Assembly (NCBI GenBank): GCA_902769535.1
Contig: CACXPH010000010.1
Span: 50,515 to 114,514 of the forward strand
From: an uncultured Bacteroidales bacterium
Lineage (GTDB): Bacteria; Bacteroidota; Bacteroidia; Bacteroidales; Paludibacteraceae
DNA length: 64,000 nt
Direction: 5' to 3'
Made by a program: the position numbers and the translations under genes. Shown one piece after another: positions 9,584 through 63,897 of the stretch. Below the pieces are notes generated by a model, which was given only the letters and a program-made list of their open reading frames with translations, did not search any database and was not told where the DNA came from. Position 1 is the first letter of the stretch, and each line of letters opens with the position of its first letter.

Positions 9584-10690
9584 ATGGAAAATGATCAAAT
9601 GGTAAATCTGAAACGGACTCCGTTTACAGACATTCACATCGCACTCGGTGCCAAAATGGCAGAGTTTGCAGGCTTTTACATGCCTATACAGTACCCGACG
9701 GGTATTAATCAGGAGCACATGATCGTTCGTGAAGGCGTAGGTGTGTTCGATGTAAGTCACATGGGTGAGTTCTGGGTTAAAGGCGAAAAAGCCCTCGATT
9801 TTCTGCAGTACATTACCACCAACGACCTGTCTGTTATTGCTGCCGGTAAATGTCAGTACACTTGCATGCCGAACGGAAAAGGAGGTATCGTAGATGATTT
9901 AATCATCTATAAATACTCGACGACCAAGTACCTCATGGTGGTCAACGCCGGTAATATCGACAAAGATTGGAATTGGGTCAATGAGGTAAAGGCTTCCAAA
10001 CCTGAATTCGCAGACGTCAGTCTCGAGAACGCTTCCGAGCGCTACGGCCAATTGGCTGTACAGGGTCCGAAAGCGACGGAGATGCTCCAACTGCTGACCG
10101 ACGCCGACCTCAAGTCTATTGACTACTATGCGTTCCGCGAGTGGAGTTTTGCAGGCGTTCCGGGTGTTATTCTTAGTAATACAGGCTACACCGGAGCCGG
10201 TGGATTCGAGCTTTACTTCCCTGCAGAGCGCGGTATAGAGATCTGGAATGCGCTGTTTGAAGTAGGCAAACCGTTCGGTCTAGCGCCTATTGGTTTGGGT
10301 GCTCGTGACAGTCTGCGTCTGGAGAAATGGTACTGCCTCTACGGCCATGACATCGACGACACGACTTCTCCGCTCGAGGCTGGTCTTGGATGGATCACCA
10401 AACTTGATGCCAAGGACTTTATCGACCGTGATTTCCTCAAAGCCCAGAAAGCAGAAGGCGTTAAACGCAAACTCGTGCATTTCGAATGTCTCGAGCGTGC
10501 TATCCCGCGTAACGGCTACGAAATATGCGATGAATCCGGCAATATTATCGGTAATGTAACCTCCGGTATTATGCTGCCAAACACCAAAGTAGGTATCGGT
10601 ATGGGTTACGTACAGACACCGTACGCCAAGAAAGAGAATATCATCTATATCAAGATTCGTGAGAAACTCGTTCCGGCGAAGGAAGTGTAA
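9584..10690 (+). CDS. gcvT: Glycine cleavage system T protein (aminomethyltransferase)
   Basis: 368-residue T protein, which transfers the methylene group from aminomethyl-lipoyl H protein to tetrahydrofolate, releasing ammonia. Motifs: [20 protein letters not shown] at the start, [11 protein letters not shown], the folate-binding [14 protein letters not shown], and [17 protein letters not shown]. The first ATG (9584) adds five residues before a second in-frame ATG at 9599; family members usually begin close to the second, so either could be used. The rest of the glycine cleavage system (P and H) is not in the window. The stop codon lies in a small tandem repeat shared with the next gene's start. 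Confidence 0.95.
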
Positions 10691-10713
10691 GGGTGTAAGG
10701 TGTATAGTGTATG
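10685..10713. repeat. Short tandem array GTGTAAG-type
   Basis: GTGTAAGG, GTGTAAG, GTGTATA, GTGTATG in series (8+7+7+7 bases). It contains both the gcvT stop codon and the patatin start codon. Confidence 0.7.
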
Positions 10714-11640
10714 AATAAACACGTAGCACTTGTGTTGGGTTCCGGCGGTGCACGCGGATTAGCGCACATCGGAGCCATCGAAGCCCTCGAGGAACGAGGT
10801 TATAACATCAGCAGCATAGCCGGTTGTTCGATGGGTTCTATCATCGCGGGAATGTATGCTGCCGGTCAACTCAAAGAAGCTAAAGAATGGTTCCTGCAGG
10901 TTGACAAGCAGCTCATTCTCCGCATGATGGATATCAATCTATTGAGTGGTAATTCACTGGTGAAAGGCCAGAAAATCATTCAAGAATTAGAGAAGATAGT
11001 TCCCGACCGACCGATGGAACAACTGAACATCCCGTGTACGATCGTCGCCTCGGACATGATCAGTACTGAAGAGGTGGTGTTCCGTTCCGGAAGTCTCTTC
11101 GAGGCCGTGCGGGCATCCATCTCTATTCCGCTCTTCTTCCAGCCCGTTCAGATAGGCGAAAAACTTCTTATTGACGGTGGCATCCTTAACCCGCTTCCGC
11201 TCCATATTGTAGCGCGCACCGAGGGTGACATACTCGTAGCCATGGATATCAGCGGTAAGGATGCCATGCCTGTGAACACCGATTACGAACCAATTGATGT
11301 AGAAGGCAGACTAACTGATTTGAAAGCCCGTGGCATCCCCGTTCCCAAGTCCGTAGAACACCAATTACGTCAGTTAGGTAAACGTGTGGACGGTATTCTG
11401 GAACGCAGAGCGCAAGATCTGGGCAGAACTGTTAGTTTCATGAGCATGCTCGACCGGATGAGTGACATGCAAATCCAGCAGAACACCATTCTGGCTTGTC
11501 GCCTTACTCCGCCGGATATACACGCCGTCATGCGTCAGTATGCCTATAACACCTTCGATTTTGACAAGGCAGAGCAGATTATTGCCGATGGTAAACGGCT
11601 GATGAATGAGGCGCTGGATGCGTATGAAAGACAGGCGTGA
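10711..11640 (+). CDS. Patatin-like phospholipase
   Basis: 309-residue patatin-family serine acyl hydrolase (lysophospholipase RssA-like). The catalytic dyad is visible: the oxyanion loop GSGGARGLAHIG at residues ~10-21, the nucleophile elbow GCSMGS (Ser ~42), and the Asp of DGGILNP (~155). No signal peptide is seen, so it is probably cytoplasmic, and no POTRA or barrel domain follows. The C-terminal ~100 residues are helical. It overlaps the TetR regulator start by 17 bases and lies two genes upstream of two acyl-CoA ligases, consistent with a fatty-acid release and activation module (inference). Confidence 0.9.
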   Translation: MNKHVALVLGSGGARGLAHIGAIEALEERGYNISSIAGCSMGSIIAGMYAAGQLKEAKEWFLQVDKQLILRMMDINLLSGNSLVKGQKIIQELEKIVPDRPMEQLNIPCTIVASDMISTEEVVFRSGSLFEAVRASISIPLFFQPVQIGEKLLIDGGILNPLPLHIVARTEGDILVAMDISGKDAMPVNTDYEPIDVEGRLTDLKARGIPVPKSVEHQLRQLGKRVDGILERRAQDLGRTVSFMSMLDRMSDMQIQQNTILACRLTPPDIHAVMRQYAYNTFDFDKAEQIIADGKRLMNEALDAYERQA

Positions 11641-15843: not shown

Positions 15844-15859
15844 TTTTTCGTAATAACGT

Positions 15860-21284: not shown

Positions 21285-23134
21285 AAAAACACAGTTTTGT
21301 ATTGGCAGCCGTTCTGCTTATAGGTCAATTGGCTTTTGCGGCACCGAAGATTGAACAAGTGGAACCGCTGTGCTGGTGGACCAACATGAACACACCGCTG
21401 ACGGTGATGTTCCACGGTCAAGACCTTAAAGATGCACAAGTGAGCGTACAACAAGTGCTGAACGGTAAACTCATGCGTGGCGAGTGTCACGGCTTAGTGG
21501 TCCGCGGTCAGCATAATGCCGAGAGCCCGAATTACCTGTTTGTGGACTTTGGTGTATTCCAGGCAGGTACCTATCGTATCACGCTTAAGAAAGGCAAAAA
21601 CAAAGTGACCTATGACTATGTCATAGCAGAGCGTCGTAAAGGTAGCCGCGAGCGTCAGAGTTTCGATGCGTCAGACGTTGTGTACCTGATCATGAGCGAC
21701 CGGTTCGTGGACGGGGACGCTACGAACAACAGCACAGCTAACACCCGCGAGAAAGCCGATAAGAGCAATGTGAACGGTCGTTTCGGTGGTGACATCCAGG
21801 GCATTATCAACAGTTTCGATCATATCGTCAAGTTAGGTTGTACGGCTATCTGGCCGACGCCGATGTTAGGAGATGACGAAGCGGCTTGGTCTTATCACGG
21901 CTACGCTTGCTCGGACTACTATCACATCGACCCGCGTTACGGCTCCAACTCCAAATACGTGGAGATGGTACAGAAAGCCCACGAGAAAGGTCTCAAGATC
22001 CTCATGGATATGGTACCGAACCACTGTGGCGCAGCACACTGGTGGATGAAAGATCTGCCGTACCAAAACTGGATTAATCAGTTCCCGCAGTTCACCAACA
22101 CCAATAACTGCTTCACGGCGAACTACGACATCAACGCGTCCCAATATGACCGTCAGCTCTCTAACCGCGGTTGGTTTGACAGTCCGATGCCCGACATGAA
22201 CCTCGAGAATCCCGACCTGCTCAAGTACTTCCAGCAGTGGGCCATCTGGTGGGTTGAATACGCGAACCTCGACGGTCTGCGCGTGGACACCTATCCGTAT
22301 ATCGAGAAGATCCCGGGCAGCGAATGGCTCGCAGCTATCCGTGCTGAGTACCCGAACCTCAACATTGTTGGTGAGTGCTGGACACGTCCGGCTCCGGCTG
22401 TTGCTTACTGGCAGAGCGGTACGCAAAACTTCGACGGTTTTGACAGTAACCTACCCTGCGTCATGGACTTCCCGACCGAAGAGGCTATTCGTCAGGCGCT
22501 CGAGAACGACGGTAACTACTGGGGTGGCGGACTGACACGCGTCTATGATGCCCTCACCATGGATTATATGTACGGCGACGTGAACAACCTGCTGACCTTC
22601 CTAGGCAACCACGACATGGGTCGTATCACGGACGTTGTGAAAGACAAAGACCCACGTCGTGTGAAGTTAGCGTACGTGCTGCTGGCTACCATGCGTGGTA
22701 TTCCACAAGTCCTTTACGGCGACGAGTACGCGATGACCTCCAAGAACAAAGACAACCCGAATGATCACTCGTATCTGCGTGCACCGCTGCCCCTAGGCAA
22801 CCAAGTAACACCGGAGATGCAGGATATGTTCGATTTCCAAAGCAAGCTCTTCAACTGGCGTAAAGGAGAGAAAGTGCTGCATTACGGTAAGACCATGCAT
22901 TTCATGGCACGTAACAACACCTACGCTTTCTTCCGTTACAATGACGAAGAGGCAGTATTCGTATTCGCCAACGCCTCGGACGAGCCGCGTAGAGTGCCGA
23001 TCGAGACCTACGAAGAGATCCTCAGCCAGTACAATCCTGTCGGCATCGACCCGCTGACCGGTGAGTCCATCGACTTAGGTCAGGCTATGGAAGCCAAGGA
23101 ACTGAGCACTATCATCGTTAAACTGACTAGATAA
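21281..23134 (+). CDS. Exported GH13 alpha-amylase (neopullulanase/SusA-like)
   Basis: 617 residues: signal peptide (MKKHSFVLAAVLLIGQLAFA), an N-terminal beta-sandwich (~22-115, PKIEQVEPLCWWTNMNTPL) as in neopullulanases and cyclomaltodextrinases, then the GH13 barrel. Catalytic residues are visible: nucleophile Asp in DGLRVDTYP, acid/base Glu in NIVGECW, transition-state Asp in FLGNHDMGR. It is probably periplasmic and acts on imported malto-oligosaccharides like SusA. There is no SusC/SusD pair in the window, so it is not within a typical Sus locus. Coupled by ATGA overlap to the YihY gene, which is an odd partner. Confidence 0.9.
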   Translation: MKKHSFVLAAVLLIGQLAFAAPKIEQVEPLCWWTNMNTPLTVMFHGQDLKDAQVSVQQVLNGKLMRGECHGLVVRGQHNAESPNYLFVDFGVFQAGTYRITLKKGKNKVTYDYVIAERRKGSRERQSFDASDVVYLIMSDRFVDGDATNNSTANTREKADKSNVNGRFGGDIQGIINSFDHIVKLGCTAIWPTPMLGDDEAAWSYHGYACSDYYHIDPRYGSNSKYVEMVQKAHEKGLKILMDMVPNHCGAAHWWMKDLPYQNWINQFPQFTNTNNCFTANYDINASQYDRQLSNRGWFDSPMPDMNLENPDLLKYFQQWAIWWVEYANLDGLRVDTYPYIEKIPGSEWLAAIRAEYPNLNIVGECWTRPAPAVAYWQSGTQNFDGFDSNLPCVMDFPTEEAIRQALENDGNYWGGGLTRVYDALTMDYMYGDVNNLLTFLGNHDMGRITDVVKDKDPRRVKLAYVLLATMRGIPQVLYGDEYAMTSKNKDNPNDHSYLRAPLPLGNQVTPEMQDMFDFQSKLFNWRKGEKVLHYGKTMHFMARNNTYAFFRYNDEEAVFVFANASDEPRRVPIETYEEILSQYNPVGIDPLTGESIDLGQAMEAKELSTIIVKLTR

Positions 23135-23325
23135 TGACAAATCACAAATCACCAATAGAAAAGACGTGTCCGCGATGCGGAGCGTCTTTTCTTTGTACTC
23201 ACGATGAACTCTGTCAATGTGTAGGCGTGCCGCTAAACGAAAAAGCGCGCGCATACTTGCGCACGCATTATAAAGATTGCTTATGCAGGGCTTGCTTACT
23301 GCAAGTGAGCCGCGAAATGCAATAG
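23134..23325 (+). CDS. Small cysteine-rich CWC-type protein
   Basis: 63 residues with eight cysteines: KTCPRCGASFLCTHDELCQC, then LRTHYKDCLCRACL. The spacing fits the Cys-rich_CWC family of small, probably metal-binding proteins of unknown role. Its start shares one base with the amylase stop (TAATG). Its first ten codons (TNHKSPIE) are a tandem 7-bp array. Its last 30 bases run antisense to the 3' end of btuF, so the two genes overlap tail to tail. As I recall, such proteins are often found next to B12 uptake genes in Bacteroidota; that would fit its position here. Confidence 0.8.
   Translation: MTNHKSPIEKTCPRCGASFLCTHDELCQCVGVPLNEKARAYLRTHYKDCLCRACLLQVSREMQ
23137..23157. repeat. Heptamer array at start of the CWC gene
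   Basis: ACAAATC, ACAAATC, ACCAATA: three 7-bp units directly after the ATG, read in frame. Confidence 0.7.
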
Positions 23326-24348
23326 ACTATCGGGGGCGTTATTCAGCATATGAATTACGTCCTCGAGCATTTCTTCGGGGTGCACTACCCCACGCTCCCA
23401 GAAATTATTCGCACCGGAAGGCTTGGTTTGTTTGCGCCAGTTATAGACGCGACCGTCTTGGTAAGCCTTGAACCAGGTGTGTTTCTCATCCATCTCCGCC
23501 AGTTCAGCCAAGGTATTACCGTTCGCACCAACCCATACATCCGCTTCGTGGAAATAACGAATCGTCTCTTCGATGGTCAGCGGGATTGAGGTCTCACGCT
23601 CGTCCTCGTAGAAGGGATAGTCCGCACCGGCATCCTTGAAGAGGTACGCCAGGTAGTTCTTGCCACTCGGCACATACCAGGTACCTCTAAAATTATTGCC
23701 GGACATAATTTTAGGGGATTGATGATTTATGATTGTAGATTGAAGATTTTTAAACTCCTCATACTTCTCCTCCACTTCCGCGAAGACGGAGTCGGCTTGG
23801 TGCAGACGACCGGTGAGGGCACCGAGGACACGAATCCACTCGGCACGCGCTAAAGGCGAACCTTCCTGCCACTCGTTGATATAGATAGTAGGAATACCGA
23901 GTTTCTCCAGCCGCACGGCTTCAAGGTTGTCGTACTGACCGTAGTTAACCGCCAGCAACATATCTAGCCCGGCTTGTAAAGCTCGCTCTGCCGATGGTTT
24001 CATCGAGTCACCCAAGTCTATCTCATCGCCTTTGACCGGCGTGTAGATCAGTTCAGGATTACACACGGCAACCAAGCAATCCATCGCATCGAGGGCATAG
24101 AGAAAACCCACCTGCACAGTGCTCATGGTGCCTAACCGACGCAGCGGTTCACGCACACAGAGACGCTTGTAGGGTTGGAAGACCTCTACGACCGTACCGC
24201 TGTCGGTCTGGGTTATCTGAAAGCCCGTCGCGTACTTGTTCCCTGCCGGTACAGAGCTCTGCTCCGTAGGCTGTTTGGCACAGCCCACGAAGCAAAGCAG
24301 CAGTACATTAAAGCTCAGTACCCAGAATATTGAATACCTTCTCACCAC
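23296..24348 (-). CDS. btuF: BtuF-like cobalamin ABC transporter substrate-binding lipoprotein
   Basis: 350 residues from a GTG start. A lipoprotein signal (SFNVLLLCFVGC) precedes a periplasmic binding protein of the BtuF/FhuD type: LRRLGTMSTVQVGFLYALDAMDCLVAV, LGIPTIYINEW, DVWVGANGN. It would bind B12 in the periplasm for a BtuCD importer, which is not in this window. The first 41 bases overlap the end of the upstream DUF4465 gene. A stretch near residue 200 (NLQSTIINHQSPKI) is encoded by a five-unit heptamer array and probably forms a surface insertion. Fourth gene under the cobalamin riboswitch. Confidence 0.85.
   Translation of the reverse strand: MVRRYSIFWVLSFNVLLLCFVGCAKQPTEQSSVPAGNKYATGFQITQTDSGTVVEVFQPYKRLCVREPLRRLGTMSTVQVGFLYALDAMDCLVAVCNPELIYTPVKGDEIDLGDSMKPSAERALQAGLDMLLAVNYGQYDNLEAVRLEKLGIPTIYINEWQEGSPLARAEWIRVLGALTGRLHQADSVFAEVEEKYEEFKNLQSTIINHQSPKIMSGNNFRGTWYVPSGKNYLAYLFKDAGADYPFYEDERETSIPLTIEETIRYFHEADVWVGANGNTLAELAEMDEKHTWFKAYQDGRVYNWRKQTKPSGANNFWERGVVHPEEMLEDVIHMLNNAPDSLLHFAAHLQ
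23714..23748. repeat. Heptamer array inside btuF
   Basis: Five 7-bp units of the form NNNGATT (GGGGATT, GATGATT, TATGATT, GTAGATT, GAAGATT), read in frame in btuF. Confidence 0.8.
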
Positions 24349-25900: not shown

Positions 25901-27778
25901 CTATGGTTCAATATGTAAATCTATCGCACCGGCGACCTCAGTGCTTAACTCACCGGTTTGCGGCAGGATTTCATCCACCGCACAATAGACGCGGATAAAG
26001 TCCACCTTCTCCAGCGTGACAGGTTGTCCGCTTGCGTCCACTGCCCAAGAGAGGTCAAAGGACGTACCCTCGAGGTCTGTATTGGGTTTGTTGTCCACAT
26101 AACCGAAATCGAGTATGCGCTGAACGTTTTGGTTGTTGATCTTCGCCGACTGAGGCGGGAGTAATGCACCGTTAAGCGTGTACTCATCGGCTGTAAGCCA
26201 CTGCGGATAGTACGGGTGCTTATGGAAGGGGTTCTGTAGCGTGTCGCCCTCGCGCGTATAGGTCACAGCATGGTTATGTTCGGTCTGCGGATCGTCGTAG
26301 AGACAGCCTTTGAGTTCATACCAGGTGTCGTCGGGCAGGCCGTTGCCATTCGTATCTTGGCTCACCAGCACAATACCGGGTTCAGAACTACCGTACTCAT
26401 CACTACCGGTCATGTAGAAGGCATTGCCGAGGATCTGCAGGTCACGTCCTTCTTTGTTCTCTACCGCATGGTCAAAACCGAAGGTCACATAACCACCCCA
26501 ACCTCCTAAGGAAATCATGCCTCCGGCATTATTGGCAATGGCTTTTTCGCACTTACGGCACATAGATTCCGCATCATCTCCTTCCTCGTATTTAGGCAGT
26601 TCATTGACGAACTGACCCATGCCGGGCACGAACTCGTATACGCGATTGATATACGGCGAGTACGTCGCAGTTGTGTCATGGTGCGTGGTGTCGCCGTGCA
26701 GGTCATAGGCACCGGTCACAAGGCATAAGTGACCCGGTATATCGCCGGTCTTCGCTGTCCAGCACTCCTGTCCCGTAAGGCTATAGCAATGCAGCACACC
26801 AGACGAGACGTAGTTCTTCGCGTCGGTAATATAGAGGGCATCCTCTGTTAGAAGCAGCCCGTACGGGTGCTCGTACGTGCTCAGTGAGAGCGTTGAAAGC
26901 GATTTGTAGTCGGCCGTCGAGAAGGAACATAAGGCTTTGTTCTCTCCATCGAGAATACCCACCGTGCTGCCGCAAACAGATATATTCGCACACGGCATTT
27001 CGATGCGATGCACGATTTGTTCGTTTTTGAGCACCACCACTTGTGGCTTGACGTCTTTGTAGTTTCCTTGACAGCACACCCAGAGTTGGTTATGGTCGTC
27101 TTTGCGGAGACGTGTCGGGTTCAGACCGACCGATATACGGCGAACCTCTTGGAACGAATGGAGGTCCACAACCGAGATAGTCGAGTCGTACTGATTTACC
27201 AGATAGCCTCCGGAATTGACCACATAGAGTTGGTCTCCTATGACACACAACTCGTCCGGTTGGTGACCTACTTTCACTTCGCGGGTGATCTGAAGCGTGG
27301 CGGTGTCTACTTCGTAGACAGATCCTAACAGTTCGGGATTCGCCACAGAACCTACATACGCACTGACATAGAGTTTGTCACCGTGAAAAGCCATGTACCG
27401 GCAATTAGAGATCTCCACTTGGCCTATATGTCGTGCTTGGATATCCATTACTTCGACCTTATGCGAGCAGTTGATTACCGCATAGAGGCGTCCTCCGTGT
27501 TGCTGCACATCGTTACCTACATCGCCCAACTCTTTGAGTTGGTTCGGGTTTTGTGCACCGTACCAATTGCTATAATAATCGCCTTTCTCGAGGTTCATGT
27601 AGTCCAGTCGTGCCTTATTCGAACCCATGTTTCCCTCGCAGAGGATATACAAACCACCCTTCCCCGTCAGGTCCGTGACATGCGTACCGATGGTGGGGTA
27701 AATCACTTCGTCGCCTCTACAAGACCATAGAAGCAAAGAACAAAGAGCAAAGACTAATATCTTACGGCTAATGTGCAT
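25901..27778 (-). CDS. Surface lipoprotein: BtuG-like beta-propeller fused to a C-terminal domain
   Basis: 625 residues. Lipobox LLLWSC with Cys20. Residues ~35-370 show YncE/DUF5074-type propeller blades (GGLYILCEGNMGSNKARLDYM, VGHQPDELCVIGDQLYVVNSGG, ISVGLNPTRLRKDDHNQLWVCC), as in BtuG, the surface protein that binds B12 very tightly and caps BtuB. Residues ~385-625 are a second domain (GGYVTFGFDHAVENKEG, YGSSEPGIVLVSQDTNGNG, DFIRVYCAVDE) of a kind usually found as a separate surface protein. It overlaps btuB by 25 bases, consistent with a BtuBG complex. The fused architecture is the unusual part. Confidence 0.8.
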   Translation of the reverse strand: MHISRKILVFALCSLLLWSCRGDEVIYPTIGTHVTDLTGKGGLYILCEGNMGSNKARLDYMNLEKGDYYSNWYGAQNPNQLKELGDVGNDVQQHGGRLYAVINCSHKVEVMDIQARHIGQVEISNCRYMAFHGDKLYVSAYVGSVANPELLGSVYEVDTATLQITREVKVGHQPDELCVIGDQLYVVNSGGYLVNQYDSTISVVDLHSFQEVRRISVGLNPTRLRKDDHNQLWVCCQGNYKDVKPQVVVLKNEQIVHRIEMPCANISVCGSTVGILDGENKALCSFSTADYKSLSTLSLSTYEHPYGLLLTEDALYITDAKNYVSSGVLHCYSLTGQECWTAKTGDIPGHLCLVTGAYDLHGDTTHHDTTATYSPYINRVYEFVPGMGQFVNELPKYEEGDDAESMCRKCEKAIANNAGGMISLGGWGGYVTFGFDHAVENKEGRDLQILGNAFYMTGSDEYGSSEPGIVLVSQDTNGNGLPDDTWYELKGCLYDDPQTEHNHAVTYTREGDTLQNPFHKHPYYPQWLTADEYTLNGALLPPQSAKINNQNVQRILDFGYVDNKPNTDLEGTSFDLSWAVDASGQPVTLEKVDFIRVYCAVDEILPQTGELSTEVAGAIDLHIEP

Positions 27779-29784
27779 CGTACATTTGTTTTAGGCATCG
27801 GGTAATTCTGGATTACTTCGTAATCCTGCCCGAGCAGGTTATTGATTTCAATATTGGCTTTCAGCCAAACGGGCTGTTTGTCTTGCTCAGCTCTAAGCTG
27901 CCACTCTCCATACACGCTCAAGTCGTGCGTATACCAGGGCTGGACGTAGTTATAGATGGTGTTCTCTTGCTGGCAATACCGCTCACCAACATAGATGAAC
28001 GAATAATTGAGTCCATAATGATCTCCACGCTTACTTGTCCAATCAAGTCCCACCACTACACTCCCGCTGTGCCACGGGATATACGGAATCTGGTGACCAT
28101 AATAGGTGTCATTTGGATTGGTTATGTCAATCGCCGTCTGGTACGTATAGTTAAGTCGTGTACGCAGTACAAAGCGCAAGGGCAGATAGAACGACAGATC
28201 AGCCTTGGCATCTACGCCGTTGATCTTCACCGTACCTAAATTGAGCATTGTCCACCTAAACTGCTGTCCCTTCGGGTAGGCGATGATTTTATCCGTCACG
28301 CGGTTATAGTAATACGAAGCAGACGTCTGAATACTGAAAACTGAATTCTGTATTCTGTAATCTAAAGAAACCGAGTGCTGCCGTGCCAACTCCGGACGGA
28401 GGTTCGCATTACCGAGATCTGTATAATAGAGGTCATTGAAAGTCGGATAGCGATAACTCTGCTTATAGAACGCATTCAAACTTAAGTCAATCTTCGGGTA
28501 CGGTCTAAAGGAAACGAAAATACCTGGCGTTATTTTCGGATTTGTGATTGGTGATTGGTGATTGGTGATTTGGGTCATGAGCACGCTTGCTTGCACGCGT
28601 AGATATTCCTTGACGTTGAATGCTGTTGCTGCAGAAAGCCAATGCGAATGACGATTGAAATGCTCCGGCGCAGCCTCTAAAAGCAAATTCTCCCTTGCAA
28701 GCGTGTTAAACTGGTAGTCATAGGCCAGCGAAGCGTCCCACCAATTGAAGATCTGCACCTTATTCGCAAACGACAGATACACCTCTTGCTGTAGGTACTC
28801 ATTATTAGACGGCAGCAGTCGGTCATCGTAGTTCCAGTAATGCGTGTAATCATTCGCGTACTTGACCAGCACACGCGTTGACCATCGGTTAAACCACTCG
28901 TCCTGCCATTCGCCTTGCACAAATGTATTCCTGTCTCGTAACCGTTCACCATTACGCCAGACGTTATTGACAATCGCTCCAGGTATACCGCGCTCCGACC
29001 AATAGTTATACGCATGCAGACGCCAGAAACCCGTTGTGCGGTAGTAATGGTGCAGGCCTAATTCCGTACGCACCGCATTAATATCTCCGTTTTGCCGTAC
29101 GGCCGTCGTGTCATAGGCTGTCTCACCGGTAGGAAGCACACGTTTATAGCGGAAAGGATACTTACCGTCTGAATAGACGTATTCGGCATCGAGTGTGAGG
29201 GACAGAGCGTCCGTCAGTTTGACATCCACGCCTATATTCGGATTAGCTAATGCAAACGAACCGAAACGCATCTGCGCGTGCGCATGTACGCGCTCGCCCG
29301 TTTTAAAATAAGGTTTGCGCGTAGTAAGATACACGTTTCCTGCCGAACCAAACTCGCGTGCCGACTGGAATATATCCGATTTCTGACCATTGAACAATTG
29401 GATCTGCTCCATGTTATCGAGCGAGAAGCGCCCGAGATCCACTTGACCGTTTTGCGCATTCCCTAACTGCACGCCGTTATAATAGACAGCCGTGTGCTGG
29501 CTACCCATAGAGCGGACGTTGATGGTCTTGATACCACCTACTCCGCCATAGTCCTTGAGTTGAACGCCCGAGAAATACCGCAACGCGTCTGCCACAGACA
29601 GGGCATTAAGTCGCTGCAGTTCCGCACCTTTGAGTGTCTGCGGGATAATCACATCCTTCGTCAAGGCACGCGCAGTAACTTCCACCTCCTCTATTTGGAA
29701 GCGGTTATACAGCGTGTCCGGCTCTGCAAATAGAGCCACGGCACAAAGTGCGAAGATAAATATGAATAGTTTGCGTCTTACCAT
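27754..29784 (-). CDS. btuB: TonB-dependent cobalamin receptor, BtuB-like
   Basis: 676-residue outer-membrane receptor. Signal peptide (LFIFIFALCAVALFA), a TonB box-like IEEVEVTARAL, a plug domain (LNALSVADALRYFSGVQLKDYGG, INVRSMGSQHTAVYYNGVQLGN), then a 22-strand barrel ending in aromatic-terminated TLAVRY. The cobalamin riboswitch directly upstream identifies the substrate. Two heptamer arrays are read in frame: one gives NSVFSIQTSA, the other ITNHQSPITN, in regions expected to be extracellular loops or strand edges. First gene of the B12 operon. Confidence 0.93.
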   Translation of the reverse strand: MVRRKLFIFIFALCAVALFAEPDTLYNRFQIEEVEVTARALTKDVIIPQTLKGAELQRLNALSVADALRYFSGVQLKDYGGVGGIKTINVRSMGSQHTAVYYNGVQLGNAQNGQVDLGRFSLDNMEQIQLFNGQKSDIFQSAREFGSAGNVYLTTRKPYFKTGERVHAHAQMRFGSFALANPNIGVDVKLTDALSLTLDAEYVYSDGKYPFRYKRVLPTGETAYDTTAVRQNGDINAVRTELGLHHYYRTTGFWRLHAYNYWSERGIPGAIVNNVWRNGERLRDRNTFVQGEWQDEWFNRWSTRVLVKYANDYTHYWNYDDRLLPSNNEYLQQEVYLSFANKVQIFNWWDASLAYDYQFNTLARENLLLEAAPEHFNRHSHWLSAATAFNVKEYLRVQASVLMTQITNHQSPITNPKITPGIFVSFRPYPKIDLSLNAFYKQSYRYPTFNDLYYTDLGNANLRPELARQHSVSLDYRIQNSVFSIQTSASYYYNRVTDKIIAYPKGQQFRWTMLNLGTVKINGVDAKADLSFYLPLRFVLRTRLNYTYQTAIDITNPNDTYYGHQIPYIPWHSGSVVVGLDWTSKRGDHYGLNYSFIYVGERYCQQENTIYNYVQPWYTHDLSVYGEWQLRAEQDKQPVWLKANIEINNLLGQDYEVIQNYPMPKTNVRCTLAVRY
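28327..28368. repeat. Heptamer array 1 in btuB
   Basis: Six 7-bp units: CTGAATA, CTGAAAA, CTGAATT, CTGTATT, CTGTAAT, CTAAAGA, in frame with btuB on the other strand. Confidence 0.8.
28543..28570. repeat. Heptamer array 2 in btuB
   Basis: Four units: TGTGATT, then GGTGATT three times. Same NNNGATT theme as the btuF array. Confidence 0.85.
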
Positions 29785-31397: not shown

Positions 31398-31425
31398 TAG
31401 TATTCAGTAATCAGTTTTCAGTCTT
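31398..31425. repeat. Heptamer array over the wzc stop
   Basis: TAGTATT, CAGTAAT, CAGTTTT, CAGTCTT: four 7-bp units that include the last codons and stop of the wzc-like gene. Confidence 0.75.
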
Positions 31426-34089: not shown

Positions 34090-34116
34090 AACTCTAACCT
34101 TTAACCTATAACTTTT
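34089..34116. repeat. Heptamer array between wza-like and wzc-like genes
   Basis: TAACTCT, AACCTTT, AACCTAT, AACTTTT: four 7-bp units filling the intergenic gap. Confidence 0.75.
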
Positions 34117-34882: not shown

Positions 34883-35763
34883 TGCTTACCTCCTTCCCCT
34901 GTTGATGATCCTGAACCACCGTTTCCATAATATTTATTCACGTGATTGATACCCGTCTGCACGATCGAATAGATGAACACACCGAACGAGATCGTCGCGG
35001 CTGTCACACCAATCACGGTCGTCACGTGGTTGATACCAAAGCTATAACCGGGTATCTGGCGGATATAAATAATATCATTCGGCTCGATGTAATAATACTC
35101 CGAGTTGATAATATCTTCCGAACGAGCATCAAAAGTCTTAATGGTCGTCACACCATTCTTCTCACGGATAAGCTTGATCTCCTTACGGCTGTTGAATTCT
35201 TGCAGGTCACCTACCATCGCGAGTGCCTCGAAGATGGTCATCTTCTCCTTGTTGATCGTGTAGCGGCCACTCTGCGCACCAATGACAGAGAACGAGCGGT
35301 TCACGATATTCACCTCCACGGAAACCATGGAATAGCCCGGAATCTCTTTGAGCAACGTACCCAACTCTTCTTCCAGCATATACTTCACCTCACGGGTCGT
35401 CTTGCTCTGCACATACAACTTACCGATCGTCGGGAACTCAATATATCCCTCTTCATCCACCAGATACGTGTACAGATCGTACGAACCGTACATACCACCC
35501 TGTCCCATTTGCTGACGCATCTGCGACGCATTCGTTCCTCCGGCATTGTACATCTTCATGATGCTCTCGTCTAACGAATAGACATACACATATAATCGGT
35601 CTCCTATTCGCAGCTGGTAATCCTCAAAACTCAAAGTGTCCGCGTAATGAGGAATCTGCTTGTCAGGCTGTTGCATGTAGTTCACTTTCCGCGCCGTCAC
35701 ACAGGAAGACAGCGCAAAGCCAACTACTGCCAGAATGAATAAATATTTAAATTTTAAAATCAT
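34879..35763 (-). CDS. Wza-like polysaccharide export lipoprotein, copy 1
   Basis: 294 residues, lipobox ALSSC. Poly_export domain (LSFEDYQLRIGDRLYVYVYSLDE, YLVDEEGYIEFPTIGKLYVQSK), SLBB-like segment (RSFSVIGAQSGRYTINKEKMTIFEALAMVGD) and a C-terminal hydrophobic segment (TTVIGVTAATISFGVFIYSIV), followed by a Gly/Ser-rich end. It resembles copy 2 in order and key phrases, so the two come from duplication. It would form the outer-membrane channel for the polymer handled by the Wzc-like protein. Confidence 0.9.
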   Translation of the reverse strand: MILKFKYLFILAVVGFALSSCVTARKVNYMQQPDKQIPHYADTLSFEDYQLRIGDRLYVYVYSLDESIMKMYNAGGTNASQMRQQMGQGGMYGSYDLYTYLVDEEGYIEFPTIGKLYVQSKTTREVKYMLEEELGTLLKEIPGYSMVSVEVNIVNRSFSVIGAQSGRYTINKEKMTIFEALAMVGDLQEFNSRKEIKLIREKNGVTTIKTFDARSEDIINSEYYYIEPNDIIYIRQIPGYSFGINHVTTVIGVTAATISFGVFIYSIVQTGINHVNKYYGNGGSGSSTGEGGKQ

Positions 35764-35782
35764 AAATCTTAAATCTTAAATT
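35755..35782. repeat. Heptamer array before the wza-like genes
   Basis: TAAAATC, ATAAATC, TTAAATC, TTAAATT: four 7-bp units in the gap upstream of the first wza-like start. Confidence 0.75.
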
Positions 35783-38603: not shown

Positions 38604-39700
38604 TTTACAATGCCCTTCTCTAAGTATTCTGCGAGGTTAAAGTGCTCGCGCGTCACCTTCTGCATATCGTGTTTCACCATCAGTTCTACCAACTCCTCAA
38701 AACTCGTGCTCTGCGGATTCCATCCGAGCTCTCTCTTTGCTTTCGAAGGATCACCCAACAGGTTCACCACATCCGTCGGACGGTAGAAGTCCGGACTAAC
38801 CGCCACAACAACCTGACCTACCGTAACCGGTAACCCGTTACCCGTAACCGCTGCTACAATTCCCTTCTCGTCTACACCCTTGCCTTCCCAGCGCAGTTCG
38901 ATACCTGCGTGCTTGAAGGCGAGCGTCGCGAACTCACGCACACTATGCTGCACACCCGTGGCAATCACGAAATCCTCCGGCGTATCGTGCTGCAGGATGA
39001 GCCACATGCACTCCACGTAATCCTTCGCGTAGCCCCAGTCTCGCAAACTATCCAGGTTGCCCAAGTACAGACAATCCTGCATGCCGTGTGCGATACGTGC
39101 AGCTGCCAACGTGATCTTACGGGTCACAAAGGTCTCACCGCGGCGCTCGGACTCGTGGTTGAACAGGATACCTGAGCAGCAGAACATGTTATACGCCTCG
39201 CGGTACTCCTTGATGATCCAATAGCCGTACAGTTTGGCTACCGCATACGGCGAGTACGGGTGGAACGGTGTGGTCTCGTTTTGCGGCACCTCTTCCACCT
39301 TACCGTAGAGTTCCGATGTCGACGCTTGGTAAATCTTACAGGTCTTCTCTAAATGGTTCGTACGAACAGCCTCCAATACACGCAGTACACCTACCGCATC
39401 TACGTCAGCCGTGAACTCCGGAGCATCAAAACTAACCTGTACATGACTTTGCGCAGCAAGGTTATAAATCTCATCCGGCTGCACTTTGCCCACCAGTTTT
39501 ACCAGCGACATCGAGTCGCTCATGTCGGCATAATGCAGGTGGAAATGCGGGGTGCCCTCCAAGTGCGCGATACGCTCACGGAAGTCCACCGAGCTACGAC
39601 GGATGATGCCGTGCACCTCGTATCCTTTCTCCAATAAAAACTCCGACAGATAACTGCCGTCCTGACCCGTTACACCGGTTATTAATGCGATTTTTGCCAT
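38600..39700 (-). CDS. gmd: GDP-mannose 4,6-dehydratase
   Basis: About 366 residues from the ATG at 39700 ([22 protein letters not shown]). The enzyme converts GDP-mannose to GDP-4-keto-6-deoxymannose. Motifs: [37 protein letters not shown], the catalytic [14 protein letters not shown] Tyr-Lys, and [16 protein letters not shown]. Longer in-frame starts are excluded because the promoter lies at 39756-39787. Near residue 290 the usual short loop is replaced by [15 protein letters not shown], encoded by a heptamer array. First gene of the capsule operon, coupled to fcl. Confidence 0.95.
38821..38848. repeat. Heptamer array inside gmd
   Basis: CCGTAAC, CGGTAAC, CCGTTAC, CCGTAAC: four 7-bp units, in frame in gmd. 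Confidence 0.8.
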
Positions 39701-44449: not shown

Positions 44450-44484
44450 CTTTCAACTTTCAACTTTCAACTTTCAGCTTTCAT
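44450..44484. repeat. Heptamer array CTTTCAA
   Basis: CTTTCAA three times, CTTTCAG, CTTTCAT: five 7-bp units filling the gap between the terminator and the stop of the EF-G2 gene. Confidence 0.85.
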
Positions 44485-49459: not shown

Positions 49460-50252
49460 GCCATCCGCTACATACGCAATAGTAACCGGTGCCTCTTCAG
49501 GCATCGGTTACGCTTTTGCGCAGGCCTTAGCCAAGAGAGGCTACAACCTCCTTCTCGTCAGCAATGTCCCGGAGATCCATGAGGCGGCAGAGAAAATAAA
49601 ATCTTCAATTTCCAATCTCCAATCTCCAATCGAGGTCGTGGGCCTCGTTCTCGATCTCGGTCAACAGTCCTCTGCGCGCGAATTATATGAATACGCGCAC
49701 GCGCATGAGATGGAGGTAGAGGTGTTGGTCAACAATGCCGGTGTCTATCATGATAAGGACATACTCGACGACAGCGAAGGTTTCACGAGTCTGATCATGA
49801 ACCTGCATATGTACACTCCGGCGATGCTCTGTTATCTGTTCGGTCAGGACATGAAGCAGCGCCGTAAGGGATATATCCTCAATGTCTGCTCGGTGACGAG
49901 TAAGATGGCAGCACAGCGTCTGGGTACGTACGGCAGCACGAAAGCGTTCCTTTGTAATTTCACCCGTGCCTTGCATATCGAGTTGCGCAAGTACGGCGTG
50001 AACGTGACGGATGTCAGTCCGGGTGCCGTAGATACAGGACTCTACTCTATTCCTCCGTTCATGACCAAGCTCGGCAAGTGCCTGGGTATCATCGTCAGTC
50101 CTGAGACCTTGGCCAAACGGGGATTATGGGCGCTGTTCCATGGATGCGCCAAAACAACAATACCCACCGTTTTCTGGCGGGTACTGTGTTTGCTTATTCT
50201 GCTCACACCGACGTGTGTGCTGCGATTGATCAGAAGATTAGGATGGTTCTAA
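49449..50252 (+). CDS. Short-chain dehydrogenase/reductase
   Basis: 267 residues. Classical SDR motifs: TGASSGIGYAFAQALAKRG (cofactor binding), LVNNAGVYHD, catalytic Ser in CSVTSKMA and YGSTKAF Tyr-Lys (~residue 160), then DVSPGAVDTGL. The C-terminus is hydrophobic (VLCLLILLTPTCVLRLIRRLG), suggesting membrane association as in some ketoreductases. Substrate unknown. Residues ~50-60 (SSISNLQSPIE) come from a heptamer array in a loop that is variable in SDRs. Its stop codon lies within the terminator stem. Confidence 0.87.
   Translation: MSNKPSATYAIVTGASSGIGYAFAQALAKRGYNLLLVSNVPEIHEAAEKIKSSISNLQSPIEVVGLVLDLGQQSSARELYEYAHAHEMEVEVLVNNAGVYHDKDILDDSEGFTSLIMNLHMYTPAMLCYLFGQDMKQRRKGYILNVCSVTSKMAAQRLGTYGSTKAFLCNFTRALHIELRKYGVNVTDVSPGAVDTGLYSIPPFMTKLGKCLGIIVSPETLAKRGLWALFHGCAKTTIPTVFWRVLCLLILLTPTCVLRLIRRLGWF
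49603..49630. repeat. Heptamer array inside the SDR gene
   Basis: CTTCAAT, TTCCAAT, CTCCAAT, CTCCAAT: four 7-bp units in frame. Confidence 0.82.
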
Positions 50253-57189: not shown

Positions 57190-58460
57190 CGCGCATTCGA
57201 ACGAATAGTCTTTACGCCAACAAGGCGATCATAACGGCTTCCAAACGGACGCCACCAGACGAAAATCGTATATTCGTTCTCCGTCTGCCAATAACTACCA
57301 TCCACTCGTTGGGTGGTAGTTTTTCTATCACCTCTAACCTCTAACCTCTCACCTGTTTTTGGTACAAAAACATACTGGTAGTCATACCCACCCTGTTTCA
57401 CCAGCGCTGTTAGCCAGTAACATTTGGCATCATTGTCATACTGCATGCGGTTATGCAGATCCAAGGTGTTGTAAAACAAGTCTCCGTCCACGTAGAGCGA
57501 ACCGTCGAAGAAAGGCTTCTCCACTGGCAGCGTCCAATGCACCCACATATACTCCGCTTCCGTATCGCTGTCGCTCGTGCGTTCGGCATTGACTACAAAC
57601 CGTCCGTTGCTGTCGAACTCATGGATATACTGACCTTCCGTCACTTCGTTCGGAAACAACAGCGCGTGATAGTCACCCATCTCATGCACTACCCTGTCTA
57701 TTCCCGTACCGGCATAGAAACAACTGAACGCATCGAAATGGTGGTACTCATTACCTCCCTCAAAAATCAAAGCCTTGTTATTGATATATCGCAACCTATT
57801 CGGCTCTACAAATGTTGGCTTGTCCAGCGTCACCGCATTGTCCGTCCGGTTGTTCTGCATCACCACCACCCTAAACTCTGAAGCCTGTCCGCTCATCGCT
57901 AATCGCTCATCGCTCATCGTTATGTCCACGTCGATTTGCTGATACCTTCCATTGAACTCAATATCCGTGTTTGCTCTTACGCTCGCGTCTATCTTCACGA
58001 TCGGCTCAACTATGCAGAAATCCACTTCAGCCACCTTCTTATCCGTATCTCCGTCCTCGTATATCGTCAGACGATAATTGCCGCTCTTGGTCAATTGCAT
58101 GTCCTCGTTCGGAAACTCAAACCAGTAATGCGTGTACTCCCTACTTGTATTGATCGAGTGCTCATACTCCGTGATGTCCCTCGTCGTAAATCCCTGCAAG
58201 TACTCGCTGCTAAGCATTCCATCATTAACCTCTAACCGCTCACCTCTCACCTCTAACGCTTGTACAGTATAACTGTACATGTGTACATTATGACTCATCT
58301 CGTCGAACGAGATTTGCAGCGGTTCCTGTTCGTCTAACACCAGCACCTCACGCGCCACGCGCAACGTGCGTATGTTCTCATTATATACTCGCACATGGGT
58401 CTGAGCAACCAAACTCGTTACCAGACTCAAAAAAAACACTATGAACGCTATTTTTTTCAC
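57186..58460 (-). CDS. Type IX secretion system plug protein (DUF5103)
   Basis: About 425 residues from a GTG at 58460 (VKKIAFIVFFLSLVTSLVAQ signal peptide); no ATG fits better. DUF5103 features: RVYNENIRTLRVAREV, EPLQISFDEMSHNVHMYSYTV, YLQGFTTRDITEYEHSINTSREYTHYWFEFPNEDMQLTKSGNYRLTIYEDGD in pieces. The family Plug closes the SprA channel of T9SS from the periplasmic side. Three heptamer arrays are read in frame, giving LEVRGERLEVN, SDERLAMSGQ and ERLEVRGDRKTT, so one protein carries three such insertions. The start lies within the divergent tRNA-Thr promoter region. Confidence 0.87.
   Translation of the reverse strand: MKKIAFIVFFLSLVTSLVAQTHVRVYNENIRTLRVAREVLVLDEQEPLQISFDEMSHNVHMYSYTVQALEVRGERLEVNDGMLSSEYLQGFTTRDITEYEHSINTSREYTHYWFEFPNEDMQLTKSGNYRLTIYEDGDTDKKVAEVDFCIVEPIVKIDASVRANTDIEFNGRYQQIDVDITMSDERLAMSGQASEFRVVVMQNNRTDNAVTLDKPTFVEPNRLRYINNKALIFEGGNEYHHFDAFSCFYAGTGIDRVVHEMGDYHALLFPNEVTEGQYIHEFDSNGRFVVNAERTSDSDTEAEYMWVHWTLPVEKPFFDGSLYVDGDLFYNTLDLHNRMQYDNDAKCYWLTALVKQGGYDYQYVFVPKTGERLEVRGDRKTTTQRVDGSYWQTENEYTIFVWWRPFGSRYDRLVGVKTIRSNAR
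57324..57351. repeat. Plug gene array 1 (heptamer)
   Basis: TCTATCA, CCTCTAA, CCTCTAA, CCTCTCA. Confidence 0.78.
57890..57917. repeat. Plug gene array 2 (heptamer)
   Basis: CGCTCAT, CGCTAAT, CGCTCAT, CGCTCAT. Confidence 0.82.
58226..58260. repeat. Plug gene array 3 (heptamer)
   Basis: TAACCTC, TAACCGC, TCACCTC, TCACCTC, TAACGCT; same family as array 1. Confidence 0.8.
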
Positions 58461-60870: not shown

Positions 60871-60885
60871 AAATTTCAAAAAAAA

Positions 60886-60934
60886 CCTATAACCTATAAC
60901 CTATAACCTATAACCTATACACTATACACTAAGC
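60886..60934. repeat. Heptamer array CCTATAA
   Basis: CCTATAA five times, CCTATAC, ACTATAC: seven contiguous 7-bp units between the sugar transferase stop and the permease promoter. Longest heptamer array in the window. Confidence 0.88.
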
Positions 60935-62477: not shown

Positions 62478-62628
62478 TGTTTATGGCTTTTAAATGATTT
62501 GGCTCGTTAGAGTGCGAGATTTGGTAGTAAAAACTATCTAAAAGTTTACTTTTAAGTAGGTTTTAGTAGCAAAGATCATAAGATGTGTAACATCTAAATC
62601 ATTTAAAAGTGTTTTATATGTTTTTTTT
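62478..62628 (-). ncRNA. Structured ~150-nt element B
   Basis: Second copy of the element at 58886-59034, with the same ends (AAACATATAAAAC and GCCATAAACA on the minus strand) and nearly the same length. Outer helix CTTTTAAATGATTT / AAATCATTTAAAAG is perfect (62487-62500 with 62596-62609). Inner helices GATGT/ACATC, TAAAACCT/AGTTTTTA and CTCG/CGAG. It follows the stop of the FemAB-like gene by about ten bases. Confidence 0.55.
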
Positions 62629-62637
62629 ATTTACTTC

Positions 62638-63897
62638 CTAACCTTTAAGCAACCGTACTGCAAACACACCTAATCTATATAGGATAGGTTTCGTAATGCA
62701 CAGGAACCGTCCCTGCTCCACTAATTCTCCTCCAAACTCTGCCTTAAAGTCTCGTACCCCATACGGTACTCCCGGCACTCCGGCTCCCATCACATCAAAT
62801 CGCGCCAAACCATGCTCATTCGCATACTCCATCGCAGCCCAAGTTGCCATCACAGACGGATACTGCTCCCTATATTCATTGTCTAACCCGCATATATACC
62901 ACTCATAGATTGTTCGGCCATCCATAATAGGACAGATCATGCCTCCTATTACTTTGCCCCTGTACTTCATCAACAGGTATTTTCCGATGTCCTTTCGGTA
63001 GAACGACAGGAAAAACTCCAACGGAAACAGCGGTGTTTTCACCTTCTTAGCATATAGATCTTTTAGTATCTGATACCATTCTCTAATCTCTGCTTCACTG
63101 ATCCCCTCGCTCTTTATCTCCACGCCATTTGAGATGGCTTTCTTCACTTGTCTCCTTCTTACCTCACTCAATCGCTCCCACATTGCCTCCTTATCCGTAC
63201 AATCGATATGGAAATTCAAATGCCTCATATATTCAAATCTCGCCTTCTCAAATGCCCCACGCCACTTCGAATAATCATTAAAATTCCTCGTCTCTATATA
63301 GATGGGGCAGAGATTGCGTAGTCTTTTTTTGGTGTTTTTTGTGAGCATGGAGAAGCCAATTGACTTTTGGCTTCGAACAGGGAAGGTAGTCGGGGAGACT
63401 GAACCGACCGAGAGTGAATGTTTTTGTGAGGAATCCTGCAGGGACTCTGTTCCTGCGGCACAGGATTGAGTGGTAGTCTGTCCGAAAGCTTGTTTTCGAG
63501 CAGACTGCGATTCAATGCTGGGTAGGTCGTTGTCAGACGATTGCAGATGCCGTGTTTTTGTTTTCACTGCCTCTAATAATGCGATGACTTCTGCGTCTGT
63601 GGCATCGTCCGCCAATACCGGTCCACCTTGTATTATTGCTCTTCTCGTAAAATACTGCTTCAACCCACTCCGCTCTTTCGTCACATACCCCACACATACC
63701 CCGCGTAGCTTTCGTTCATTCGTTAACTCGTTCACTCGTTCAACGGCTATTGCAAAAGGCATGAATAAATCAGGCATTGAAGCAAATAGCATATACGCCT
63801 CCGGACTCTGAAACCACGTTCCCGTCTCACTCTCCCGTACCAGCCTTCCCCACTCCGTCCGGTCTATCGCATCATATGTAAGTATCTTATAGGTCAC
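62638..63897 (-). CDS. FemAB-like acyl/aminoacyl transferase with in-frame insertion
   Basis: 419 residues from a GTG at 63897. GNAT-fold FemAB/FemX-type protein, often found in polysaccharide clusters: WGRLVRESETGTWFQSPEAYMLF, CPIYIETRNFNDYSKW, HLNFHIDCTD, RRRQVKKAISNGVEI, KYRGKVIGGMICPIMDGRTIYEWYICGLDNEY, VPGVPYGVRDFKAEFGGELVEQG. Between the helix ending LLEAVKTK and CPIYIE lies an alien Ser/Gln-rich stretch of roughly 80 residues (QSSDNDLPSIESQSARKQ and on), encoded by palindrome-rich DNA. Residues ~52-63 (ERVNELTNERK) come from an octamer array. The reaction here is unknown. Confidence 0.8.
   Translation of the reverse strand: MTYKILTYDAIDRTEWGRLVRESETGTWFQSPEAYMLFASMPDLFMPFAIAVERVNELTNERKLRGVCVGYVTKERSGLKQYFTRRAIIQGGPVLADDATDAEVIALLEAVKTKTRHLQSSDNDLPSIESQSARKQAFGQTTTQSCAAGTESLQDSSQKHSLSVGSVSPTTFPVRSQKSIGFSMLTKNTKKRLRNLCPIYIETRNFNDYSKWRGAFEKARFEYMRHLNFHIDCTDKEAMWERLSEVRRRQVKKAISNGVEIKSEGISEAEIREWYQILKDLYAKKVKTPLFPLEFFLSFYRKDIGKYLLMKYRGKVIGGMICPIMDGRTIYEWYICGLDNEYREQYPSVMATWAAMEYANEHGLARFDVMGAGVPGVPYGVRDFKAEFGGELVEQGRFLCITKPILYRLGVFAVRLLKG
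63352..63505. repeat. Palindrome-rich insertion inside the FemAB-like gene
   Basis: Hairpins in series: GAAGCCAA/TTGGCTTC (63352-63374), AATCCTG/CAGGATT with GCAGG/CCTGC inside (63432-63467), and GTCTG..CGAAA/TTTTCG..CAGAC (63476-63505). All lie within the non-conserved protein segment. Confidence 0.65.
63711..63742. repeat. Octamer array in the FemAB-like gene
   Basis: TTCGTTCA, TTCGTTAA, CTCGTTCA, CTCGTTCA; reverse complement of the octamers in uvrA (42312-42351). Confidence 0.78.

Follow-up and report, generated by a model that had tools for sequence, protein, structure and literature searches.

The DNA considered here, hereafter the window, is a stretch of 64,000 nucleotides (64 kb) on contig CACXPH010000010.1 of an uncultured Bacteroidales bacterium of the Paludibacteraceae. 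It carries genes for EF-G, a UvrA paralogue, a TonB-plug receptor and a plug-domain protein of the type IX secretion system (T9SS). In the gaps between genes, and in frame within several of them, lie short degenerate tandem arrays of 7-bp units, built of many different words (Table 1). The arrays were measured as ungapped lag-7 segments, with a cut-off score of at least 9 in the window and a stricter cut-off of at least 12. Fourteen period-7 segments reach the former value, compared to 0.43 (maximum 3) in 60 dinucleotide shuffles and 0.23 (maximum 2) in 60 codon-preserving controls. Seven is the most over-represented of the lags 4 to 24, with 9 segments at a score of at least 12 against 0.05 in 20 shuffles; the second-ranking lag, 14 (5 segments), is an echo of 7. 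A preliminary description of this DNA had reported such arrays, made of many different words, both at gene junctions and inside genes, and this observation is confirmed: the excess outlasts both types of control, the arrays inside genes hold the reading frame (ITNHQSPITN, GERLEVRG, ISNLQSPI), and those in-gene arrays that were examined are not conserved protein sequence in relatives.

Of the 18 arrays listed by position in that description, 13 have scores of 10 to 35. Three more, at 10685, 31398 and 34089, are borderline with a score of 8, since 1.4 segments per window are expected at 8 or above. The last two, at 41965 and 42062, score 5, where 57 segments per window are expected, and are therefore not separable from chance on the lag-7 measure. 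With Tandem Repeats Finder, period-7 rows are obtained for 16 of these 18 positions, all except 41965 and 42062; its 8-bp rows include 15849, 42227, 42314 and 63712, and a 9-bp row is found at 10767. The fourteenth segment, 27734-27753, had been missed. It lies upstream of the gene 25901-27706(-) and would be intragenic if that gene began at 27778.

Table 1. Period-7 arrays of the window, their setting and their lag-7 scores
Array	Position	Strand	Setting	Score
AATCACA type	23133..23156		Starts at stop codon of gene 21281-23134(+)	11
GATTNNN	23717..23748	-	In frame, periplasmic binding protein gene 23296-24288(-), Peripla_BP_2; peptide LQSTIINHQSP	10
CAAAGAR	27734..27753		Gap between genes 25901-27706(-) and 27754-29739(-)	10
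CTGAATN	28327..28363	-	In frame, TonB-plug receptor gene (Plug domain); sense peptide DYRIQNSVFSIQ	15
GATTGGT	28539..28570	-	In frame, same TonB-plug receptor gene; sense peptide ITNHQSPITN	22
TAAATCT	35757..35781	-	Same-strand junction; takes in start codon of gene 34879-35763(-)	15
CCGTAAC	38823..38849	-	In frame, GDP-mannose dehydratase gene (GDP_Man_Dehyd)	11
AAATCAT	42975..42997	+	In frame, uvrA paralogue (UvrA domains); peptide EANKSEIINHNSKIEN	10
CTTTCAA	44450..44483		Between EF-G stop codon (44484-46640, -) and terminator-like hairpin (by eye)	24
AATCTCC	49606..49631	+	In frame, short-chain dehydrogenase gene (adh_short); ISNLQSPI	16
ACCTCTA	57330..57354	-	In frame, T9SS plug-domain gene (T9SS_plug_1st); GERLEVRG	15
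CGCTCAT	57890..57919	-	In frame, same T9SS plug-domain gene; MSDERLAMS	17
ACCTCTC/TAACCGC	58226..58254	-	In frame, same T9SS plug-domain gene; EVRGERLEV	13
Mosaic, AACCTAT to ACACTAT	60884..60931		Gap before start of gene 60929-62410(-)	35
GTGTAAG (borderline)	10692..10712		Same-strand junction 9584-10690 / 10711-11640	8
CAGTNNT (borderline)	31399..31422		Near junction 29909-31390 / 31411-34089	8
TAACCTT (borderline)	34095..34112		Junction 34089 / 34115	8

The arrays are a genome-wide feature. The genome to which the window belongs, that of a rumen bacterium and referred to here as the focal genome, comprises 1.887 Mb in 39 contigs (85% completeness), and 464 kb of it, the window and 20 further stretches amounting to about a quarter, were sampled. 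This sample contains 74 period-7 arrays at a score of at least 12, compared to none in 10 shuffles, which extrapolates to around 300 arrays per genome; period 8 is represented by 8 arrays, period 11 by 13, and the remaining periods by few. Among the 74 arrays, 38 are coding, 27 lie in same-strand gaps, 6 in convergent and 2 in divergent gaps, and one is unassigned. Expressed per 10 kb, these are densities of 0.9 in coding sequence, 13.8 in same-strand, 8.9 in convergent and 2.3 in divergent gaps; the corresponding values are 0.93, 18.6, 9.9 and 4.5 for the congener G033, and 0.2, 7.7, 1.4 and 3.5 for the congener G013. Many junction arrays of the focal genome and G033 start at or within a stop codon and finish near or within the next start codon, and an array of period 6-12 is present in 14 of 49 (focal genome) and 16 of 42 (G033) same-strand gaps of 25-50 bp. 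The orientation of the G-rich strand relative to transcription follows no consistent pattern. Within coding sequence, 36 of the 38 arrays are in frame without a stop codon, and the two exceptions (L116 10678 and L129 1458) straddle the start or end of a gene. Genes were called with a small hexamer script of our own, with no published gene finder, and the absence of stops is partly due to the calling of genes as open frames. According to excerpts of PMC4679880, unit lengths divisible by three tend to be likeliest within genes; this preference is not found in coding sequence of the focal genome, where 46 segments of period 7, 6 of period 6 and 3 of period 9 reach a score of at least 11.

Relatives were collected via their EF-G genes and are uncultured Bacteroidales, many of them Paludibacteraceae, from rumen and gut samples. 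Eighty EF-G loci contain 160 period-7 arrays, their density being 1.31 per 10 kb for loci 1 to 52 of the list and 0.62 for the remaining 28; these groups follow list rank, so that a few near relatives (L057, L067) fall into the second one. In contrast, an outgroup sample from other families of the order (274 kb in 20 stretches, each from a different genome and two of them below 1.5 kb) has only 2 arrays. The dominant period differs even between related genomes. In the focal genome, G033 and G013, units of 7 bp are the commonest. This does not hold for the 98%-complete congener G010, 400 kb of which contain 38 arrays of period 11, 21 of period 8 and 5 of period 7, or for G027 and G032, of which less was sampled. 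Samples of 140, 140 and 75 kb from G027, G032 and G012 contain 0, 3 and 2 period-7 arrays, and 2, 9 and 2 arrays of period 11, respectively.

Comparison of orthologous sites revealed that the arrays turn over. For this, 123 of 411 arrays were kept, namely those with flanks of at least 80% identity on either side. A partner that was at least 99.9% identical and of equal length was removed as likely representing the same genome, whereby true identical orthologues were also lost, and some genome pairs enter in both directions. The partner site holds the same word in 55 cases, a different array in 19 and no array at the threshold in 49; thus, 68 of 123 orthologous sites hold another array or none, a few of the partners without array being decayed same-word arrays (L041 15892, L232 16290, L234 5532). 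At the EF-G-side site 44450..44483, the relatives listed have other words or none, and the same is true for the variable loops of UvrA among the matches listed, where the L088 partner of array 42975..42997 carries a different word. The word can change at constant length (L041 versus L044), and the period can change as well, as seen for L225 (period 7) and L224 (period 8), whose flanks are 94% identical. Where the word is kept, the length is mostly kept too: 26 of 27 coding, 16 of 24 intergenic and all 4 mixed arrays show no difference, and for the 51 coding or intergenic arrays the differences are 0 in 42, 7 in six, 21 in two and 1 in one. The one in-gene array of unequal length differs by 21, and in this constancy between genomes the in-gene arrays are unlike phase-variable contingency repeats, whose unit number changes fast and thereby switches a reading frame. 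Over all coding sites, length differences are a multiple of 3 in 58 of 59 cases, or 20 of 21 without zeros, with a single exception of -11. The in-gene array L006 9499 exceeds a 1.6-unit seed in L005 by 21 bp, with flanks that are 98% identical. At partner sites without a same-word array, the word with at most one mismatch is present in 35 of 68 cases, compared to 17.4 with exchanged words (maximum 27 of 300), which supports birth or decay of arrays in place at some of the sites. In the closest pair of genomes (96.0% identity over 73.6 kb), word and length are kept in 10 of the 13 period-7 arrays of one genome that have a partner site and in 9 of 17 of the other; the arrays are therefore neither hypervariable nor frozen. 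With regard to unit number, the excess over controls in the focal genome, coding and intergenic arrays taken together, amounts to about 7 arrays of two units, 37 of three, 36 of four, 33 of five and 4 of six, while in G013 it falls steadily from three units. A simulation showed that, when units diverge by 8%, about half of the two-unit arrays escape detection, which makes a shortage of this class likely, but not certain.

The words themselves are characteristic of the genome in which they are found. Two arrays were considered to have the same word when their consensus sequences agreed after collapsing rotations and strands. The preliminary description had noted that the words differ; this holds inside the window, but on the scale of the genome identical words recur, with 47 distinct words among the 74 arrays of the focal sample. 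The class AATCACC, to which the array 28539..28570 belongs, accounts for 5 of the 74. Among 2701 array pairs, 42 have an identical word, where random 7-mers drawn from the same DNA give 2.8 and random words of equal composition 4.3 (maximum 12 of 200). When three genomes were pooled (74, 76 and 30 arrays), 185 identical pairs were found within genomes against a permutation mean of 80 (maximum 114 of 5000); for the focal genome and G033 only, the values are 174, 100.5 and 142. When unit words were looked up in sets of 29 randomly drawn arrays, they were recovered at 47%, 66% and 59% within their own genome, compared to 9-25% in other genomes. One word can be used in coding and intergenic sites alike, such as AATTCAC in G033 (6 and 6). 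Words of other periods are also shared: 14 of 703 period-11 array pairs of G010 have the same word, and a single word is common to 12 of 20 period-8 arrays of G033. Of the mosaic arrays, 10 of 18 (focal genome), 3 of 7 (G033) and 3 of 9 (G013) have two end words that are each present elsewhere in arrays of their own genome, the mosaic 60884..60931 of the window being one of these. The vocabularies of the other two genomes contain both end words for 2 and 1, 2 and 0, and 0 and 0 of the mosaics, respectively. One of the bases G and C is missing from 53 of the 74 focal words (35 expected) and from 98 of 160 words of the relatives (82 expected). Outside the arrays of their own genome, the words are not enriched as single 7-mers (relative frequency 0.89-1.23), and seeding by abundant 7-mers was ruled out on these grounds. 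Likewise, a larger mobile element surrounding the arrays of the focal genome was rejected, as none of its 42 same-word pairs has common flanks.

Several further observations concern the surroundings of the arrays. By eye, the arrays at 15849, 44450 and 57324 and the EF-G-site equivalents in L014, L033 and L057 begin at a terminator-like hairpin or a T-tract. A palindromic element, CACGATTATTTGGCAAAGCCAAATT, adjoins heptamer arrays at unrelated loci (L198:9973-9997, L207:3679-3703), with a similar stretch at an L051 site. Other dispersed palindromes (GTGCCCGGAGGCACC; CCCTCCC...GGGAGGG) fill gaps or in-frame loops where sister genomes have heptamer arrays, for instance in the region of L022:4829, with partners in L043, L091, L222 and L227. 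In G010, period-11 arrays on both sides of a AGCATACGATA-type core form composites (L188:2467-2597 and 11145-11256; L193:1-132 and 16012-16057), which occur in both orientations at several places and look like a dispersed element built of arrays. Arrays of period 10, CCTAGGTNNA, are located at the L007/L027 junction, at L230:7542-7589 and at L234:12733-12766 with L235:12725-12767. In the sisters L234 and L235 the CCTAGGT core is kept and 2-3 bases of the spacer differ, which gives the impression of a constraint on the palindromic core. The focal genome encodes two UvrA paralogues (window 41325-43988 and G000:C5:64278-65837), and in an alignment residues 297-348 of the UvrA of the window, including two 8-bp arrays, replace about 118 residues of the solved UvrA 9gxk. 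The gene 31411-34089, which carries an AAA_31/CbiA ATPase domain, contains Gly/Tyr-rich repeats near its ends, at 31561-31662 and 33994-34068 (CCGTAA units; 27-bp units); these look like repeats at the protein level, distinct from the heptamer arrays.

The preliminary description interpreted the arrays as one fixed period made from free sequence by a copying process, an interpretation that is partly supported. A fixed period does not fit the composition of G010, and the sequence is not free, as words recur far more within than between genomes while single 7-mers outside arrays are not enriched. We tentatively favour a mechanism in which slippage-type arrays are seeded by copies from arrays of the same genome and the period is carried by the word, and give it slightly less than an even chance. 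The arrays are degenerate heptanucleotide tandem repeats of the "long simple sequence repeat" kind. Local tandem duplication, by replication slippage or re-copying of the template in steps of 7, but also of 8, 9 and 11 nucleotides, is proposed to create and resize them. Mismatch repair by MutS would be blind to 7-nucleotide loops, so that the duplication steps would be too long to be removed by it. Arrays would survive only where the DNA may vary, that is, in intergenic gaps and in protein loops, the latter provided that the sum keeps the frame without a stop. Plain slippage gives no genome-specific vocabulary; it is therefore proposed that new arrays are often seeded by a short piece of another array of the same genome, which would be copied by microhomology-driven template switching and then amplified in place to about 3-5 units. 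The period would thus be carried by the word instead of being set by an enzyme, in line with the identical words among period-11 arrays of G010. Further points in favour of the mechanism are the length differences in whole units, the near-words at partner sites, the preserved frame, the presence of MutS, the sharing of words within genomes and the end words of the mosaic arrays. The seeding step is the new and the weakest part of this mechanism. It was further speculated that the words form a heritable, competing vocabulary, in which 7-, 8- and 11-mers reach separate gaps and protein loops as short seeds taken from existing arrays, multiply locally and displace older words, sister species acquire dialects with different periods, and operon spacers and enzyme loops are rewritten with no dedicated mobile-element enzyme; this extension is rather doubtful.

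A number of results weigh against this mechanism. No donor-recipient pair of arrays was caught, and of the 49 partner sites without array 6 contain the exact word, a number within the reach of chance (control mean 2.0, maximum 7 of 200). The excess is flat over 3-5 units and drops at 6 in the focal genome, and roughly so in G033, unlike what simple stepwise birth and death would give. Local clustering of same-word arrays is weak, the observed value being reached by 270 (focal genome) and 170 (G033) of 2000 permutations, although it is stronger in G013 (13 of 2000). Flanks are also shared in 7 of 14 period-11 same-word pairs of G010 and 7 of 132 period-7 same-word pairs of G033, compared to 67 of 678 and 75 of 2707 different-word pairs, respectively; since this concerns half of the G010 pairs, part of the sharing there represents dispersal of larger composite elements. 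Sharing of unit order is weak and inconsistent. Pairs that share at least 18, 21 and 25 bases number 31, 9 and 2 in the focal genome (shuffles 16-23, 6-10 and 3-7), 106, 50 and 31 in G033 (101-112, 36-47 and 22-28) and 12, 4 and 2 in G013 (13-19, 5-14 and 1-6), and with six unit shuffles only, copying of whole arrays as blocks is neither shown nor excluded.

The arrays could also arise by slippage in situ alone, without exchange between sites, the DNA polymerase imposing period 7 through the length of the duplex that it grips. The maximum at period 7 in the focal genome, G033 and G013, the whole-unit length differences, the growth of an array from a seed and the near-words at partner sites without array all agree with this explanation. 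However, congeners with presumably similar replicases differ in their dominant period, as illustrated by G010, the composition of 7-mers leaves the genome-specific vocabulary unaccounted for, and identical 11-mer words are found at separate places in G010, half of them with common flanks. Slippage without seeding is considered unlikely, if by no means negligible. An improbable alternative is that selection keeps period and word for a function, with the arrays serving as binding sites or as spacers for translation coupling (stop/start modules, unstructured mRNA). The higher density in same-strand than in divergent gaps of all three genomes, the contact or overlap with stop and start codons and the frequent lack of G or C in the words would suit such a role, and according to excerpts of PMC4679880 the published TAACTGA repeats are mostly located just upstream of start codons. 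This explanation would not account for the use of the same words within unrelated coding sequences, and orthologous sites swap word or period, or have no array, at flank identities of up to 98%. In addition, convergent gaps are rich in arrays in the focal genome and G033 (though not in G013), and the G-rich strand has no consistent orientation to transcription.

A dedicated enzyme, namely a reverse transcriptase that copies a short RNA, a transposase of the repetitive extragenic palindromic (REP) type (Y1) or an error-prone Y-family polymerase, appears very improbable, even though the excess at 3-5 units in the focal genome and G033 would suit bursts. Of 12 genomes, only G061 and G062, which both bear arrays, have RVT_1; it was not found in the focal genome, G010, G013 or G033, by which a telomerase-like origin was rejected. 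Y1_Tnp (E<=0.001) is present in 16 of 37 genomes, but in none of the seven deep-sampled ones, rich or poor, the focal genome and G033 included, and a REP-type transposase was discarded accordingly. The preliminary description had suggested a linked polymerase. Indeed, a Y-family polymerase is present in the three richer deep-sampled genomes (1.59, 1.90 and 0.89 arrays per 10 kb) and was not found in the four poorer ones (0.12, 0.00, 0.21 and 0.27); however, this striking link is unsupported in 80 genomes, where density is 1.11 per 10 kb with PF00817 (n=65) and 0.85 without it (n=15), or 1.33 versus 1.12 and 0.59 versus 0.70 inside the two groups of EF-G loci. These 80 genomes are of unstated completeness and overlap with the set of seven (G033 is L033), and L005 has no PF00817 match although its 96%-identical sister L006 has one. 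Loss of mismatch repair was likewise dismissed as a cause, as MutS was found in 36 of 37 genomes (the focal genome and congeners), the single miss being G017, which is 54% complete. Finally, all records are metagenome-assembled genomes or derive from uncultured bacteria, with no isolate among them, and an artefact of assembly or binning might be suspected. This is hardly credible: arrays and unit variants are identical in separate assemblies (the L005 and L006 regions, 96% identical overall), arrays of conserved genes keep the frame, and outgroup stretches sampled alike are nearly free of arrays.

The kind of repeat is already known. Excerpts of PMC4679880 and PMC4692102 attribute to Mrazek et al. 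2007 both the observation that, among repeats of 5-11 nucleotides, heptanucleotides form the largest class in most genomes and the idea of slippage in which 7 nucleotides are the length in contact with the polymerase; the proposal of the preliminary description is therefore not new. Context on simple repeats is given by Huang and Mrazek 2014 (excerpts of PMC4060949). The arrays described here resemble these long simple sequence repeats in their tandem units, with 7 as the commonest length in the focal genome, G033 and G013, and in slippage as the proposed origin, and they are longer than chance (74 against 0 in shuffles), as is typical for the class. In contrast, about half of them are intragenic (38 of 74) although 7 is not a multiple of 3, and they combine a genome-specific vocabulary with a dominant period that shifts within one genus. 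In the excerpts of PMC4679880, MacGregor 2015 describes TAACTGA direct repeats in Beggiatoaceae, Cyanobacteria and five Bacteroidetes, which likewise mark a genome by a word and are patchy across genomes, whereas tens of words per genome, in coding sequence as well, are found here; TAACTGA itself is not among the 40 of 47 focal words listed. Rehm et al. 2015 (excerpts of PMC4692102) report GGGAATC repeats of Xanthomonas and GGGGA(C/T)T repeats of Nostoc, which are G-quadruplex candidates of a single word type, and also mention three Calothrix heptanucleotides. The Xanthomonas repeats have four units in the majority and are intragenic to 7-11% in two genomes. Common to these repeats and the present arrays are degenerate units with fixed and variable positions and variation of length and sequence between close species. 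Here, however, there are many words, most of them without a GGG tract; at least 4 of the 74 focal arrays have one (AACCCAT and AACCCGT, 2 arrays each), GGGTTAC-type arrays are also present, and most focal words lack the G tracts of at least three in every unit by which G-quadruplex heptamers are recognized.

In the open-licence literature searched, no paper on heptamer tandem repeats in Bacteroidales was found, and none of the papers listed by a looser search names Paludibacteraceae. As far as these searches go, there is no description of a multi-word genome vocabulary, of a period that changes inside one genus or of such a load of in-frame arrays in conserved enzymes. The excess of heptamers has so far been credited, in the excerpts mentioned above, to the 2007 survey, with the grip of the polymerase as the single idea. 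The genus studied here offers a natural test, as its related genomes, with presumably similar replication proteins, differ in dominant period and each have a vocabulary of their own. Should the period reside in the word and not in an enzyme, a short sequence could spread through a genome without a transposase, and operon spacers as well as novel loops of conserved proteins, UvrA among them, could be built from it. In annotation, ITNHQSP, GERLEVRG and similar peptides of these proteins are to be regarded as repeat-derived and not as conserved motifs. The short tandemly repeated repetitive (STRR) sequences of cyanobacteria, a different phylum, resemble the present arrays in their degenerate units of seven nucleotides and in that a single genome has several words. 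The palindromic elements of Rickettsia, which are located in frame within genes, share with them the toleration of repeats in frame in housekeeping proteins; those elements are longer and palindromic, whereas the arrays described here are made of short tandem units.

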